From: Acidimicrobiia bacterium
Lineage (GTDB): Bacteria; Acidobacteriota; Terriglobia; Bryobacterales; Bryobacteraceae
Reading direction: 5' to 3'
Length of the DNA stretch: 64,000 nucleotides
Assembly: GCA_016871315.1 (NCBI GenBank)
Contig: VFZE01000004.1
Coordinates: 1-64,000 of the forward strand
Shown in pieces: positions 49,914-56,488 of the stretch (position 1 is its first letter; each line of letters starts with the position of its first letter). A model generated the notes under the pieces. That model had not been told where the DNA came from. It saw only the letters and a program-made list of their open reading frames with translations, and did no database searches. The translations under genes and the position numbers were made by a program.

Positions 49914-50118
49914 GGAAGACAATTCTCCAGATGGTCGTTAAAGAGTCAGGTGTTGGCGGTTCCTGCTAGCACAAGTCTAGAGCCGGGCCGCCGGGTAAAG
50001 CCAATCAAAAATTTCAATCAGGGCGATAGAAACGTTCTGTTTGGTGGATGGGCGCGGCGGGTGCAATATGGAAAAGACCGCTACGTTTGCCGTTTGTCCC
50101 ATGAGGAGACTTTCGACC

Positions 50119-51486
50119 ATGCTCAAGAAAACCTGTCTTTTTCTTGCCGCCGCAAGCGCCTTGCTGGCGCAGGACGCTGAGAAGCTCGCTGCGCTGGAGA
50201 GTGCCGTTCAGGCGGCGCAATCCTCCGGCGATAACGCCTGGATGCTGACCAGCTCCGCGCTGGTGCTAATGATGACCGGCCCGGGGCTGGCGCTGTTCTA
50301 CAGCGGGCTGGTCCGCAAGAAAAATGTGCTCGGCACGATGATGCAAAGTTTTATTCTGATGGCCGTCGTTACGGTGCTGTGGGCGCTGGTCGGCTATTCG
50401 ATCGCGTTCGGCGAAGCCACGCCGTACTTCGGCGACTTGCGGTTTGCGTTGATGAATGGAGTGGGTGGGGAGCCCAACGGGGATTACGCCGGCACTATCC
50501 CGCACCAGACGTTCATGGTGTTCCAGCTGATGTTCGCCATCATCACTCCGGCGCTAATCTCTGGGGCCTTTGCCGAACGCATGAAATTCTCCGCGATGCT
50601 GCTTTTTTGCTCCTTGTGGCTGTTGATTGTTTACGCGCCGATGGCGCACATGGTATGGGGCAAAGGAGGTTTATTTAACGCCTTTTCCGGCGGCAAGCTG
50701 CCGTGCTTTGACTTTGCCGGCGGAACCGTGGTGCATATCACAAGCGGAGTTTCGGCGCTGGTGTGCGCGCTGTATCTGGGCAAGCGCGTCGGCTACCCGA
50801 CGGAAACGATGAAGCCGCATAGCCTGGTGCTGAGCTTCATCGGCGCCTGCCTGCTGTGGGTGGGTTGGTTCGGATTCAACGCCGGCAGCGCGCTGGGCAG
50901 CGGTTCCCTGGCCACCAGCGCCTTCGTCGCCACGCACTTCGGCGCCGCCGCCGCCACGGTCGGCTGGCTGGTTGCGGAATGCCTTCGTGGAGGAAAGCCC
51001 AGCGTACTTGGCGGCATCACCGGCGCCGTGGCCGGTCTGGTTGCCATCACTCCTGCCTCCGGGTTCGTGAAGCCGATGCCCGCCCTCGTAATTGGATTTG
51101 CTGCCGGGATCGTATGCTACTTGATGGTGGCGGTGGTGAAGCACAAATTCGGCTATGACGACTCGCTTGACGCGTTCGGGGTCCACGGCGCGGGCGGCAC
51201 GCTGGGTGCGCTGCTGACCGGTGTCTTCGCGACCAATGCGGTGAACAACGCCCTAAAGGACTCGGCCGGCAATCCGGCTCCGCTGGGCCTGGTGGATGGC
51301 AACGGCGGACAGATCTTGAATCAGGCGATAGGCAGCGCACTTGCGTGGGGACTCGCCATCGTGGGCACGCTTGTGATCCTGAAGATCTGCGATGCGGTGG
51401 TCGGTCTCCGCGTAGCGCCGGAGCACGAAATTCAGGGACTCGACCTCAGCCAGCATGGCGAGGAAGGCTACAGTCTGGAATCCTAA
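50119..51486 (+). CDS. amt: Ammonium transporter
   Basis: 455 residues from the ATG at 50119, preceded by AGGAG ten bases upstream; earlier in-frame starts are less likely. A signal peptide (KTCLFLAAASALLA) is followed by the Amt channel of eleven helices: LALFYSGLVRKKNVLGTMMQS, PMAHMVWGKGGLF, GGTVVHITSGVSALVCAL with the pore His, and FDDSLDAFGVHGAGGTLGALLTG-type sequence with the second pore His (read here as YDDSLDAFGVHGAGG). It precedes glnK and glnD in the same direction; PII proteins block Amt when nitrogen is ample. Confidence 0.95.
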   Translation: MLKKTCLFLAAASALLAQDAEKLAALESAVQAAQSSGDNAWMLTSSALVLMMTGPGLALFYSGLVRKKNVLGTMMQSFILMAVVTVLWALVGYSIAFGEATPYFGDLRFALMNGVGGEPNGDYAGTIPHQTFMVFQLMFAIITPALISGAFAERMKFSAMLLFCSLWLLIVYAPMAHMVWGKGGLFNAFSGGKLPCFDFAGGTVVHITSGVSALVCALYLGKRVGYPTETMKPHSLVLSFIGACLLWVGWFGFNAGSALGSGSLATSAFVATHFGAAAATVGWLVAECLRGGKPSVLGGITGAVAGLVAITPASGFVKPMPALVIGFAAGIVCYLMVAVVKHKFGYDDSLDAFGVHGAGGTLGALLTGVFATNAVNNALKDSAGNPAPLGLVDGNGGQILNQAIGSALAWGLAIVGTLVILKICDAVVGLRVAPEHEIQGLDLSQHGEEGYSLES

Positions 51487-51504
51487 GAAGGAAGGGTATC
51501 AGCC

Positions 51505-51843
51505 ATGAAAAAGATCGAAGCTATCATTCAGCCGTTTAAACTGGAAGAGGTGAAGGAAGCTCTGAAAGCCATTGGAATTGACGGCATGACGGTCACCGAA
51601 GTGCGCGGCCATGGCCGTCAGAAGGGCCACAAGGAGGTTTACCGCGGCCAGGAGTACATGGTGGACCTGTTGCCCAAGGTGAAACTAGAACTCGTCGTCC
51701 CTTCCAGCCGCCTGGAAGAGGTGATCAAGACATTGACCGCGGCGGCGCGCACGGGCAAAATCGGCGACGGCAAGCTGTTCTTGTACGACGTCGCTGAAGC
51801 AGTGCGCATCCGCAACGATGACCGTGGAGAAGCCGCTCTCTAA
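51505..51843 (+). CDS. glnK: PII signal-transduction protein
   Basis: 112 residues, the standard PII length. The T-loop carries the uridylylation Tyr (Y51 in YRGQEYMVDLLPKVK) and Y46. The B-loop TAARTGKIGDGKLF and the C-terminal RIRNDDRGEAAL are also typical. PII senses ATP/ADP and 2-oxoglutarate and controls Amt and glutamine synthetase through GlnD-dependent modification. The glnD start lies inside this gene with a 26-base overlap in a different frame. Confidence 0.95.
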   Translation: MKKIEAIIQPFKLEEVKEALKAIGIDGMTVTEVRGHGRQKGHKEVYRGQEYMVDLLPKVKLELVVPSSRLEEVIKTLTAAARTGKIGDGKLFLYDVAEAVRIRNDDRGEAAL

Positions 51844-54313
51844 TCCGCTTGCCGGCGGCGCGCAGGCGGCCGGCGACACGCAAGCGCGCTTCCTCCGCAC
51901 CGGCGACGCGGAGCAGGTCCTGGAACAGCGCAGCCGATGGGTGGATTCGGTGGTGACCGCCGCCTATGAGGCGCATCTGGCGCCGGTATTTTCCACTGGT
52001 ATGGCCGTTCTCGCCGTGGGCGGCTACGGGCGCCGGGAGCTATTTCCGCACTCCGATATCGATGTTCTGCTGCTGGTCGCGCCGGGCGATCCCACCGGAG
52101 TGGCGAAGGAAGCGCTGTCGCGTTTCCTGCAGTCGATCTGGGACTCCGAGTTGCGGCTCAGCCATTCCGTGCGCACGGTGAAGGAATGCTGTGAGTTGCA
52201 CGAGCAGAACGTCGAGCTCAACATCAGCCTGCTTGACCAGCGTTTCCTCACCGGGGACGAGGCGCTCCATCGGGAGCTTCTCGCGCGGACCCCGAAGTTC
52301 CTTGGCGCCAACCGCTTGCAGCTGGCGCGACATCTTTGCAAGCTGACCCGCCAGCGGCACGCGAAATTCCATGACACGATCCATCACCTGGAGCCGAATA
52401 TCAAAGAGGCTCCGGGCGGTTTACGCGATTTGCAGCTGTTGCACTGGTTGCGTTGCCTGGAAATGACCAGCTCCAGCGAGGATGCGCAGATGGAGCAGCC
52501 CCGGCGGTTCCTGCACTCGATGCGCTGTTATCTTCATTACCGTTCCGGGCGCGACAACAACCTGCTCAACTTTGAAGCACAGGAGGCGATCACAGAGCAG
52601 AGCTTCCTGCCTTTTGAAGATCCGTCGCACTCGATGCGTGAGTACTACCGCCATGCGCGCGCCGTGCATCGGGCGGCGCTGCGGGATTTGGAATCGGTGG
52701 AGAGCCGCCACAGCTCGCTTCTGGCGGGTTTTCGAGACTGGCGCACGCGGCTATCCAACAGCGACTTCACGGTTTCGCGCGAGCGGCTGCTGTTCAAGTC
52801 GCCGCAGCTTCTGGCCCAGGATCCCAAGCTCTGCCTCCGCCTGGCAGCTTTTCTCGGACGTCACCGCGTGCAACTGCACGCCGATTCCGAGCGGCGCATT
52901 CAGGAGCATTTGCCGCAGCTGCGGGAGTTCTTCGCGGGCCCGGAACCTCTTTGGCCGGACTTGCGCCAGATTCTGGATCTGCCGCACGCCTCCTTCGCCC
53001 TGCGTGCGCTGCACGACACTGGATTGCTGGCGGCCATCATCCCAAGCTGGGCGCAGATCGAGTGCTACGTGGTGCGCGATTTCCACCACCGCTACACGGT
53101 GGACGAGCACACGCTGATCACGATCGAGAATCTGGAACTGCTGCCGGCTTCCAAGGATGATCCTGCGCGGGGGCGGTTCGCCCACCTGCTGTCAGAAATA
53201 GAAAGCAGCGCGCTGGTCAAGCTCGCGCTGCTTTACCACGACATCGGCAAAGGCGATGAATCGGAGGACCACTCGCTGGCCTCGCGGAGATTGGCCGCCG
53301 CCGAATCGGAAAAGCTCGGCATTTCCGCGCAGGACCGCCAGACGCTGGAGTTCCTGATCGAGAACCACCTGATTTTGTCGGGTGCGATGACCGGGCGCGA
53401 TCTGGACGATCCGGACACGGCGACCTGGCTGGCGCACAAGATTACGACGCTGGAGCGGCTGAAGCTGCTGACGCTGATGACCTATTGCGATATCGGCGCG
53501 GTAAATCCGACGGCGCTGTCGCCCTGGCGGATGGAGCAGCTCTGGCGCGTTTATCTCATCACCTACCGGGAACTGACACGCGAGCTTAAGGACGAGATGA
53601 TCACCCCCTCCGACGCCGCTCCGGAACTGCGGAGATTCCTCACCGGCTTTCCGACGCGCTATCTGCGCATCCACTCCACGCAGGAGATCGAGCGGCATTT
53701 TCTTCTGGATCAGGGACGCGCGGCGGACGGCGCCGTGGTCGACATCACCCGGCAGAACGGGGTTTATCAATTAACGGTGCTGGCCAACGACCGTCATTTC
53801 CTGTTCGCCAGCCTTGCCGGAGCGGTGGCCAGTTTCGGCATGAACATTCTGAAGGCGGAAGCCTTCGCCAATACCAGCGGCACGGTGCTGGATACTTTCG
53901 TGTTTGAGGATCCGCAGCGCACGCTGGATTTGAACCCGCAGGAGCTGGACCGGATGCGCCACACGATTGAGCGTGTGGTGCTGGGCCGCACCGACGTGAA
54001 GAAGCTGCTCGGCAAGCGGCCCCGGCTGATGCCGCCGAGCAAAGGCGGACGCATCACGGGTCGCATCACCTTCGACAACGAAGTCTCGACGACGGCGACG
54101 CTAGTGGAGGTTGTGGCGGAGGACCGTCCCGGGTTGCTTTACGACCTCACGGCGGTATTTTCGGAAGCGGGCTGCAATATCGAGGTCGTGCTGGTGGACA
54201 CAGAGGCGCATCGCGCGCTGGACGTGTTCTATGTCACGCAGCAGGGAAGCAAGCTTCCAGAGCCTCTGCTGGAGAGCCTTCGCGCACCGTTGCTGGCCGC
54301 CTGCAACGGATAA
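51818..54313 (+). CDS. glnD: Bifunctional uridylyltransferase/uridylyl-removing enzyme
   Basis: 831 residues. The nucleotidyltransferase motif GGYGRRELFPHSDIDVLL lies at about 68-85. The HD hydrolase domain has LYHDIGKGDESEDHS near 470. Two ACT domains close the protein: LTVLANDRHFLFASLAGAVASFG and LVEVVAEDRPGLLYDLTAVFSEAGCNIEVVLVDTEAHRALDVFYV. All catalytic features for adding and removing UMP on PII are visible. The ATG at 51818 overlaps glnK by 26 bases, so translation is probably coupled. The Rieske gene begins 55 bp later. Confidence 0.94.
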   Translation: MTVEKPLSNPLAGGAQAAGDTQARFLRTGDAEQVLEQRSRWVDSVVTAAYEAHLAPVFSTGMAVLAVGGYGRRELFPHSDIDVLLLVAPGDPTGVAKEALSRFLQSIWDSELRLSHSVRTVKECCELHEQNVELNISLLDQRFLTGDEALHRELLARTPKFLGANRLQLARHLCKLTRQRHAKFHDTIHHLEPNIKEAPGGLRDLQLLHWLRCLEMTSSSEDAQMEQPRRFLHSMRCYLHYRSGRDNNLLNFEAQEAITEQSFLPFEDPSHSMREYYRHARAVHRAALRDLESVESRHSSLLAGFRDWRTRLSNSDFTVSRERLLFKSPQLLAQDPKLCLRLAAFLGRHRVQLHADSERRIQEHLPQLREFFAGPEPLWPDLRQILDLPHASFALRALHDTGLLAAIIPSWAQIECYVVRDFHHRYTVDEHTLITIENLELLPASKDDPARGRFAHLLSEIESSALVKLALLYHDIGKGDESEDHSLASRRLAAAESEKLGISAQDRQTLEFLIENHLILSGAMTGRDLDDPDTATWLAHKITTLERLKLLTLMTYCDIGAVNPTALSPWRMEQLWRVYLITYRELTRELKDEMITPSDAAPELRRFLTGFPTRYLRIHSTQEIERHFLLDQGRAADGAVVDITRQNGVYQLTVLANDRHFLFASLAGAVASFGMNILKAEAFANTSGTVLDTFVFEDPQRTLDLNPQELDRMRHTIERVVLGRTDVKKLLGKRPRLMPPSKGGRITGRITFDNEVSTTATLVEVVAEDRPGLLYDLTAVFSEAGCNIEVVLVDTEAHRALDVFYVTQQGSKLPEPLLESLRAPLLAACNG

Positions 54314-54367: not shown

Positions 54368-54853
54368 ATGGACTGGATGGCGGATTCCGATCTCGAGCGG
54401 CGCAGATTCTATATTGCGGTGATCTACGGCTTGTGGGCGGTGATCGGGGCTGCACTTGCCCTCCCCGCCTCGGTTTACCTGTTCCTGCCGCCGGCGGCAC
54501 GCAAGAACGAAGAGTGGGTGGAGATCGGCGACGTTTCCACGCTGCCCGTCGGAGCTCCGGAGGAAAAAATCTTCCGCCGCAACCGTAAGGACGGCTGGAA
54601 GATCATGAGTGAGAAGGCGACAGCGTGGGTGTCCCGCATGCCCGACGGCTCCGTGGTGGCGCTGGCTCCGCAATGCACGCATCTTGGGTGCGCCTATCAC
54701 TGGGATGAGCAGAAACAGAATTTCATCTGCCCCTGCCACACCTCGGCCTTTTCCATCGACGGCACGGTGCTGGCTGGTCCCGCGCCGCGGCCGCTGGACC
54801 GCTACCAGGTCCGCATCCAATCCAACAAGCTGCTGCTGGGGCCTGTCGCCTGA
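54368..54853 (+). CDS. qcrA: Rieske [2Fe-2S] protein of a quinol:cytochrome c reductase
   Basis: 161 residues with one N-terminal membrane helix (FYIAVIYGLWAVIGAALALPASVYLF). The Rieske motifs are complete: CTHLGC and CPCHTSAF, separated by 17 residues, binding the cluster by two Cys and two His. It is tightly linked to the cytochrome b/c fusion gene: three bases separate stop and start. Together they would form a bc-type complex oxidising quinol and reducing a c-type carrier. Confidence 0.93.
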   Translation: MDWMADSDLERRRFYIAVIYGLWAVIGAALALPASVYLFLPPAARKNEEWVEIGDVSTLPVGAPEEKIFRRNRKDGWKIMSEKATAWVSRMPDGSVVALAPQCTHLGCAYHWDEQKQNFICPCHTSAFSIDGTVLAGPAPRPLDRYQVRIQSNKLLLGPVA

Positions 54854-54856
54854 TTC

Positions 54857-56488
54857 ATGCGCCGCAAGATTATTGAATGGCTGGACCATCGCACCGGCGT
54901 GGAGACCGCCGTAAGGAATTTTCTCTACGAGGAGATCCCGGCCTCCAGCGGATGGCATCAGGTATTCGGCAGCGTGGCGGTGTTTCTGTTCCTGCTGCAG
55001 GCCTTCACCGGGATCCTGCTGGCCTTCAACTATGCGCCCACGCCGGGCGACGCCTACAACAGCCTGCGCTATATCATCAGCGAGCTTACAGGCGGCAGGA
55101 TGATCCGCAACCTGCATCACTGGGGCGCGAGCATGATGATCATCGTCGTCGTGCTGCATATGGCGCAGGTGTTTCTGTGGGGCGCGTACAAGAAGCCACG
55201 TGAAGCCACCTGGATGCTCGGCGTGGTTCTGCTGCTGCTGACGCTCGCCTACGGGCTTACCGGCTACTTGCTGCCCTGGGATAACCGCGCCTATTGGGGC
55301 ACGGTGGTGACCACGCAGATTGCCGCCAAAGCCCCGCTGCTTGGGCCCTACATCAGCAGGCTGATGGGAGGTGAAGGCCCGGTGGGCGTGGTGACCTTCG
55401 CACGCTTTTACGCGCTGCATGTCATGCTGCTGCCGCCGGTGACGCTGATTTTGATCGGACTGCACGTTTACCTGGTGCGTAAGCATGGCGTGACTCCCCT
55501 GCCGGACGAACAGGTCACAAGAAAGTTCTACCCGGGCCAGGTCTACAAGGACACAATCGCGATGTTCGCCGCCTTCGTGATTCTGTTCGTCATGGCGGTG
55601 GCGGTGCAGGCTCCGCTCGGCCGGCTGGCCGACCCCACTGACACCTCCTACATCCCCCGCCCGGAATGGTACTTCCTGTTTCTGTTCCAGCTGTTGAAGC
55701 TGTTTGAGGGGCCGCTGGAGATCTTTGGCGCCGTCGTACTGCCTTCGCTCGCCGTCTTGGGGCTGCTACTGGTTCCCTTCATCGACCGCGGCAAGCTTGT
55801 CGCGCTGCGCCGCCGGACGATAGCCGCCGCTGCGCTTTCCCTGGCCGCATTCGGTTGGGGAGGGCTCACCGCCGCCGCCATCGTCTCCACCCCCGCGGGA
55901 ATAGAATTGCTGGATGAGGAGGCCGCCGTTGCCGAGTGGCAGCAGCTTTCGCCGGAAGAACTGGCCGGGATCGGTTACTTCCGGCGGGAGAACTGCTCGG
56001 GCTGCCACAAGATCGGCACCTCCGGGACCGCCGTGGGTCCGGACCTCACATCCATGGCCATCCGCAAGGACGCCGCTTGGATGATCGCGCACTTCAAGCG
56101 CCCGCAGCTGATGGTTCCCGGGAGCCCCATGCCGCCCGTGCAACTGAGCGACTCACAGCTCAACGCGCTGGCCGCGTTTCTTTTGAAACTCACTCCGGCC
56201 AATGCCGAAGCCCTGCAATCGGCTCCGGCTTTCGCCGTCGACGGCGCCATGCTCTATCAGCAGCACCGCTGCGGCGCCTGCCACCAGGTGAACGGCGTCG
56301 GCATGAAGCTGGGTCCAATACTCAATGGTCTAAGCCGCCGCCGGTCCAAGGAATGGATCATTGAACATTTCCTGGAGCCGCAGAAGCTTTCGCCGGGTTC
56401 GGTGATGCCTCCCTACCGCCTGCGTCCACGCGACATGGACAACCTCACCACGTATCTGCTATCCATACCGCCGCTAGTCCAAAACTAG
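54857..56488 (+). CDS. Cytochrome b fused to a diheme cytochrome c
   Basis: 543 residues. Residues ~30-330 are a full cytochrome b: heme ligands in NLHHWGASMMIIVVVLHMAQ (His 88 and 101) and FARFYALHVMLLPPVTLILIGLHVYL (His 188 and 202 region), and the Qo-site PEWY (269-272). A linker leads to two c-type hemes: CSGCH at 380-384 and CGACH at 472-476, each followed by a Met (MPP) that can be the sixth ligand. Fusing b and a diheme c in one chain means the complex carries its own electron acceptor. The 3' end overlaps the convergent acyl-CoA dehydrogenase by 15 bases. Confidence 0.9.
   Translation: MRRKIIEWLDHRTGVETAVRNFLYEEIPASSGWHQVFGSVAVFLFLLQAFTGILLAFNYAPTPGDAYNSLRYIISELTGGRMIRNLHHWGASMMIIVVVLHMAQVFLWGAYKKPREATWMLGVVLLLLTLAYGLTGYLLPWDNRAYWGTVVTTQIAAKAPLLGPYISRLMGGEGPVGVVTFARFYALHVMLLPPVTLILIGLHVYLVRKHGVTPLPDEQVTRKFYPGQVYKDTIAMFAAFVILFVMAVAVQAPLGRLADPTDTSYIPRPEWYFLFLFQLLKLFEGPLEIFGAVVLPSLAVLGLLLVPFIDRGKLVALRRRTIAAAALSLAAFGWGGLTAAAIVSTPAGIELLDEEAAVAEWQQLSPEELAGIGYFRRENCSGCHKIGTSGTAVGPDLTSMAIRKDAAWMIAHFKRPQLMVPGSPMPPVQLSDSQLNALAAFLLKLTPANAEALQSAPAFAVDGAMLYQQHRCGACHQVNGVGMKLGPILNGLSRRRSKEWIIEHFLEPQKLSPGSVMPPYRLRPRDMDNLTTYLLSIPPLVQN

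Follow-up and report, generated by a model that had tools for sequence, protein, structure and literature searches.

Fused forms of cytochrome b and c-type cytochromes are already known in other bacteria, and a b/c fusion as such is not new. According to the sections of the respective papers that deal with these complexes, a b/c1 fusion occurs in Bradyrhizobiaceae and some Rhodospirillales and a fused cytochrome b in Planctomycetes (PMC4013037), Nitrospira moscoviensis encodes a Rieske protein, a 'fused cytochrome b/c' and, besides these, a diheme cytochrome c (PMC6606698), and Nitrospina possesses a b6-like bc operon with an octaheme cytochrome c (PMC3578206). For cultured Acidobacteria, the corresponding part of PMC8407424 describes bc1-caa3 and ACIII-caa3 'superoperons'. 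No paper on an acidobacterial two-gene form with a diheme cytochrome c was found in the open-licence literature, outside of which most subscription papers lie, and an earlier description is possible.

The window, that is the whole stretch of 64,000 nucleotides analysed here, contains a gene pair that is compared with these systems below. The Rieske ORF ends with TGA at 54851-54853, and after a spacer of three bases (TTC) the ATG at 54857 opens a single ORF specifying cytochrome b and two tandem class-I cytochrome c domains (Table 1). A preliminary description had noted that the Rieske gene is followed three bases on by one protein with two CxxCH motifs, and ORF coordinates and Pfam searches agree with this.

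Table 1. Features of the gene pair in the window, and c-type partners at the four Rieske/cytochrome b loci of the genome
Feature	Position	Strand	Details
Rieske [2Fe-2S] protein	54368..54853	+	161 aa; Pfam, NCBIfam, motif inspection
Fused cytochrome b / diheme cytochrome c	54857..56488	+	543 aa; Pfam, solved-structure alignment, conservation
Cytochrome b6-like half, aa 1-213	54857..55495	+	helices A-D; heme-b ligands H87/H101/H188/H203
Subunit-IV-like half, aa 214-345	55496..55891	+	helices E, F, G; Qo motif PEWY (aa 269-272)
Cytochrome c domain 1, aa 360-455	55934..56221	+	CxxCH aa 380 (55994-56008); candidate axial Met425
Cytochrome c domain 2, aa 456-543	56222..56485	+	CxxCH aa 472 (56270-56284); candidate axial Met517
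Rieske/b locus of the window	C4		c partner: fused diheme
Rieske/b locus	C11		c partners: 9-, 5- and 1-CxxCH ORFs
Rieske/b locus	C15, 94 kb		c partner: 8-CxxCH ORF after split b6/IV
Rieske/b locus	C15, 5 kb		7-CxxCH ORF beside probable molybdopterin oxidoreductase (by eye)

The Rieske protein matches PF00355 (E 3.8e-11) and carries both cluster boxes, CTHLGC (aa 103) and CPCH (aa 121). Its best NCBIfam match, below the cut-off, is the b6f-like Rieske family. A hydrophobic segment at about aa 14-32 is accompanied by an N-terminal RRRFYI, which we take to be a Tat-like motif. In the fused protein, Pfam recognised Cytochrome_B (aa 36-211, E 1.1e-46), Cytochrom_B_C (aa 258-332, E 4.2e-8) and, in two stretches, Cytochrom_C (E 4.1e-18). 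Among solved structures, cytochrome b6 could be aligned without gaps to aa 4-213 (3e-49) and subunit IV to aa 230-325 (2.5e-6). In pairwise blastp, c domains 1 and 2 proved to be related (34% over 77 aa, E 3.5e-20). In a cytochrome bc complex, four b-heme histidines and a Qo motif, an adjacent Rieske gene with both cluster boxes and a c-type heme part should be present, and all of these were found. Judged by sequence, the two genes very probably encode an ordinary quinol:acceptor oxidoreductase, a cytochrome bc (Rieske/cytochrome b) complex from the b6-like branch whose diheme c tail is tethered to cytochrome b.

Members of the b6-like branch have 14 residues between the helix D histidines and seven helices (A-D plus E-G). 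The cytochrome b part agrees with both features, 14 residues being located between H188 and H203. The likeness to cytochrome b6f consists of the b6 and subunit-IV sequences and this histidine spacing, but b6 and subunit IV form one chain in the window, and neither cytochrome f nor the cysteine for heme cn is present. Heme cn was rejected because b6 residue 35, a cysteine that is presumably the site of its covalent attachment, aligns with Val36, and V or T is found at this position in 8/8 rows. Also rejected were cytochrome f and a bc1 complex with cytochrome c1; both families are absent from the Pfam matches at E up to 0.01, and the tail is a class-I cytochrome c.

Hydropathy analysis of the fused protein yielded ten overlapping hydropathy windows, which collapse into seven hydrophobic segments. 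The AlphaFold model shows seven long helices, a linker and small helical c domains (mean pLDDT 85), and all 50 matches listed in a Foldseek search with the whole model are solved bc-type complexes. For the structure work, an alignment of 30 sequences chosen from the genome scan (A2) was used; another alignment (A3) comprised 17 sequences. According to the model, the cytochrome b part is the seven-helix b6 plus subunit-IV form and lacks helix H of mitochondrial-type cytochrome b, with helices named A-H after the standard nomenclature. In this respect the 'full cytochrome b' of the preliminary description needs qualification. With seven segments, the C-terminus comes to lie on the side opposite to the N-terminus, and by homology with b6f the end of helix G should be periplasmic. 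Attachment of c-type heme takes place on the periplasmic side, and there a c domain can come into contact with the Rieske head. Because helix G would end there according to the established topology, a c domain could be appended to a seven-helix cytochrome b. The linker (aa 348-357) is below pLDDT 50 and the pTM of the whole model is 0.65, and for these reasons the placement of the tail relative to the membrane part or the Rieske dock is not predicted by it. When modelled alone, the tail forms compact c domains (mean pLDDT 88, pTM 0.84). Both a profile of the tail and a fold search revealed resemblance to cytochromes c and to the diheme cytochrome c Kustd1711, with low whole-tail TM-scores of 0.3-0.4 that limit the superposition to single domains. 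In the fold search with the tail model, the 50 matches listed are cytochromes c of the class-I and diheme types as well as c domains from SoxAX, cbb3, caa3 and NO reductase.

Instead of remaining one chain, the protein could be cleaved behind helix G, which would separate cytochrome b from the diheme cytochrome c. FbcH of Bradyrhizobium, which has an eight-helix cytochrome b, is made as a single chain and cleaved. The b/c1 fusion in the pertinent section of PMC4013037 is a precedent in print for a fused chain, and by eye the sequence preceding aa 345, first arginine-rich, then hydrophobic and then alanine-rich, bears some resemblance to a signal peptide. In the model, however, this stretch is helix G and follows the region aligned to subunit IV, so that it is assigned to the b fold. 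Moreover, a cut would set the c domains free, since the model offers them no additional long helix as an anchor. Cleavage is regarded as quite improbable, and a tail that stays tethered to cytochrome b is the preferred reading. The fusions treated in that section of PMC4013037, in Bradyrhizobiaceae and Planctomycetes, resemble the window in combining cytochrome b and c in one chain, but the partner in Bradyrhizobium is of the c1 type, whereas the window protein has no cytochrome c1 family and a seven-helix b. Closer in plan to the window are four planctomycete loci from the genome scan (L149, L153, L157, L159), which have two hemes too.

An N. moscoviensis locus was also found with the fused query (L112) and, judged by its gene order, would be CIII_2. 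As in the window, and as given in the relevant part of PMC6606698, the Rieske gene is followed by a cytochrome b fused to a c domain. The heme is located at aa 371 (aa 380 in the window), and the c domain is 39% identical to domain 1 of the window over 84 aa. In contrast to the window, where both hemes reside in the tail and no separate c gene was seen, L112 has one heme in the tail and a separate adjacent diheme c ORF.

Nineteen close relatives (L087-L105) were available for comparison, and in 16 of them (L087-L101 and L104) the gene is complete on the contig. A Rieske ORF precedes the complete fused gene in 16/16, forming the same pair, with a gap of -7 to +22 bases as measured to the residue aligned with aa 1 of the window protein. 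Three contigs (L102, L103, L105) start inside the gene and retain both CxxCH motifs. Residue conservation was determined in 16 rows consisting of the window and L087-L101, with L102-L105 left out. The four b-heme histidines, P-[ED]-W-Y, both CxxCH motifs, His412 and Met517 are kept in 16/16 rows, and Met425, the candidate heme-1 ligand, in 14, being lost in L099 and L101; it is also absent from L104 and L106. Identity of the 15 relatives to the window amounts to 67-78% in cytochrome b, 35-74% in c domain 1 and 46-68% in c domain 2. That two genes have been joined by a missing stop, through a frame or assembly artefact, is hardly conceivable, for the same single ORF occurs in all 16 complete relatives and in many remote ones, and the tails are conserved with their CxxCH motifs. 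An assembly error is ruled out because these relatives, which were assembled separately, show the same pair, and this contradicts the separate cytochrome c gene in a corrected assembly that had been named as refuting evidence. A recognisable complex of only two genes, one chain of which holds cytochrome b and a diheme c, is borne out by the pair and its conservation in the relatives.

An extra CxxCH ORF of at least 60 aa on the same strand was detected in the fetched flanks of two of the 19 relatives, 2.1 kb upstream in L092 and 1.3 kb upstream in L104. In a tree of 105 rows, the window falls into a clade of 16 two-heme rows (SH-aLRT 100), and its nearest rows are MAGs titled Bryobacterales, Candidatus Solibacter, Solibacteraceae and Terriglobia, which makes an acidobacterium from this group the most likely host. 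Directly upstream of the pair (50041-54313), amtB, PII (glnB/K) and glnD-like genes were recognised by eye. A glnD gene is contained in the fetched flank of one of the 19 relatives (L101), and the gene neighbourhood is therefore not conserved.

To determine how widespread such genes are, 149 genomes of the phylum, including the one under study (G000), were searched. The fused query matched 109 of them at E <= 0.001, and among the matches listed, those of six genomes extend from the N-terminus to aa 520 or beyond (G000, G026 with three genes, G098, G055, G107 and G134). A scan of a species-level genome collection gave at least 594 matches, the best 80 of which were analysed. Fused genes are present in 63 of these best 80 loci, with tails of 1, 2, 4 or 15 hemes, a proportion that is not a natural frequency since the loci are the best matches to a fused query. 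By heme count, 36 of the best 80 have two hemes, 23 one, four at least three and 17 none; L103, L105 and L141 are counted with one heme and have both, and the two CxxCH motifs of L137 are oddly placed. Three of the 17 'unfused' loci (L122, L126, L130) have a split b6 gene with a CxxCH-containing ORF behind it; in L122 and L126 this ORF is subunit-IV-like. A Rieske ORF is located upstream in 76 of the best 80 loci; for the fused ones it is 59 out of 63, and the other four (L102, L103, L105, L141) start inside the gene. Among the titles of records with two-heme tails are Planctomycetota, Verrucomicrobiota, Myxococcota, Pseudomonadota and Fidelibacterota. The fusion as a singular invention is ruled out by the common occurrence of fused loci in the phylum draw and the genome scan, and the rarity implied earlier was not upheld, fused b/c proteins being widespread and in print. 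Longer tails were also observed. In four acidobacterial loci (L061, L129, L138, L139), cytochrome b is followed by approximately 520-550 further residues with four CxxCH motifs, and a cytochrome b chain from Armatimonadota (L111, 3492-5699) contains 15, most of which are spaced alternately by about 9-11 and 29-31 residues. Among plasmids, 99 records matched, none of them covering 80% of the query; the 15 listed matches span about half of it, namely the cytochrome b part.

The candidate heme ligands of the tails were counted with a simple script. The set of 48 two-heme tails includes L137 and L126, in which the second CxxCH is not part of a comparable domain, and the set of 37 one-heme tails includes the three truncated two-heme rows (L103, L105, L141). 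An M-P-like ligand was found for heme 2 in 45/48 and for heme 1 in 23/48 two-heme tails; if any Met in the same range was accepted, the values were 46/48 and 38/48, respectively. One-heme tails have an M-P-like ligand in 35/37. Since these counts favour heme 2, the outer heme appears to be under stricter constraint than the inner one. With Met425 lost in L099, L101, L104 and L106, the normal His/Met coordination of heme 1 may not hold for the whole group, and a different sixth ligand may serve the inner heme in these rows. His412 of domain 1 is invariant, and the corresponding His is also kept in domain 2.

A second kind of fusion was detected in L079, L084 and L086, in which the cytochrome b chain contains 9-11 CxxCH motifs; L081, cut by a contig end, has three. 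The tails are 38-47% identical over 285-408 aa to a separate ORF for 8-11 hemes that is located beside an unfused cytochrome b in L065, L066, L068, L070, L076, L078 and L082. L079, L081 and L084 are placed among unfused rows of the tree, and L086 is outside it. From tree placement and homology to a separate gene, the simplest reading is that the 9-11-heme fusion arose independently of the window fusion within the same phylum. The tree, which was built by a quick method from 105 rows of an earlier ORF selection hiding some loci behind longer overlapping ORFs, without incomplete b rows and duplicate loci and with many deep forks open, needs 12 changes for tail type and four for fused versus unfused. 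These changes may be gains or losses and do not amount to a count of fusions. Taking the observations together, we lean towards regarding the periplasmic end of a seven-helix cytochrome b as a recurrent port for c modules in Acidobacteriota and other phyla. At least two independent fusions would have occurred in the phylum, one with class-I cytochromes c of 1, 2 or 4 hemes and one with the 9-11-heme cytochrome still encoded separately in sister loci. Where a tail has two hemes, the outer would be strictly His/Met, and the inner one would drift and may be tuned or rewired.

Three COX1 genes are present in the genome on contigs C2, C28 and C48, all other than that of the pair. Each is accompanied by a CuA-bearing subunit II, one of which has its own heme c. 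No bd oxidase was found in the genome in searches whose positive controls gave matches. On C48 (8555-15546), an NrfD gene is clustered with a caa3-like oxidase, the subunit II of which carries the heme c; a second NrfD gene is located on C30. The NrfD protein of C48 is presumably of the type that forms the membrane subunit of alternative complex III. This cluster resembles the ACIII-caa3 superoperon in the relevant section of PMC8407424, unlike the window pair, which has no adjoining oxidase. The genome harbors four cytochrome b loci, on C4 (the window), C11 and, twice, C15, each with a Rieske match within approximately 600 bases, and two more Rieske matches without cytochrome b beside them on C9 and C34. 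The c partners differ among the four loci (Table 1).

The presence of a diheme cytochrome c in a bc complex is shared with the actinobacterial bcc complex (QcrA/B/C), in which QcrC is a separate protein. By analogy with actinobacterial bcc-aa3, the tail might act as a wire within a III-IV supercomplex, docked directly to a CuA oxidase. Its diheme organisation, the two oxidases without heme c in subunit II and the weak similarity of aa 320-485 to the NCBIfam family for actinobacterial QcrC (7.1e-6) are in line with this. The latter, however, reaches only 25.5 bits, compared with a cut-off of 200 for NF050122, and membership in the bcc family was rejected on this basis. Moreover, QcrC is absent among 60 of the 103 solved-structure matches of the tail profile and among the 50 matches listed in the fold search with the tail, and no oxidase gene was detected beside the pair in any of the 19 close relatives when the oxidase subunits of the genome served as queries against flanks of up to 3.5 kb per side, less at contig ends. 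Docking in a supercomplex is thus considered unlikely, and direct transfer from the tail to an oxidase, as proposed in the preliminary description, is a reasonable but unsupported guess. Two of the oxidases lack heme c in subunit II and might receive electrons either directly or by way of a shuttle.

For the two-gene complex with a tethered tail, the following route can be proposed. Quinol would be oxidised at the Qo site (PEWY), one electron passing via hemes bL and bH to the Qi site. The other would reach the covalently tethered diheme c tail via the Rieske cluster and from there a periplasmic acceptor, for which a soluble cytochrome c or a CuA oxidase is the probable candidate. Sequence or model show the domains, the ligand residues, the number of helices, the order of the genes and the conservation, whereas the Q cycle, the periplasmic side, the dimer, heme attachment and transfer from Rieske to heme c are derived by analogy with the family.

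The pair adds no new kind of respiratory enzyme; it is real and conserved, and it is well explained as a compact Rieske/cytochrome b system to which a diheme c has been fused. It shows that two genes can be enough to encode what is recognisable as the core of a respiratory bc complex. The odd helix count would provide a simple structural reason, as it brings the C-terminus to the side of c-type heme attachment, and in this conserved family the path from Rieske protein to c hemes would be fixed in one chain.
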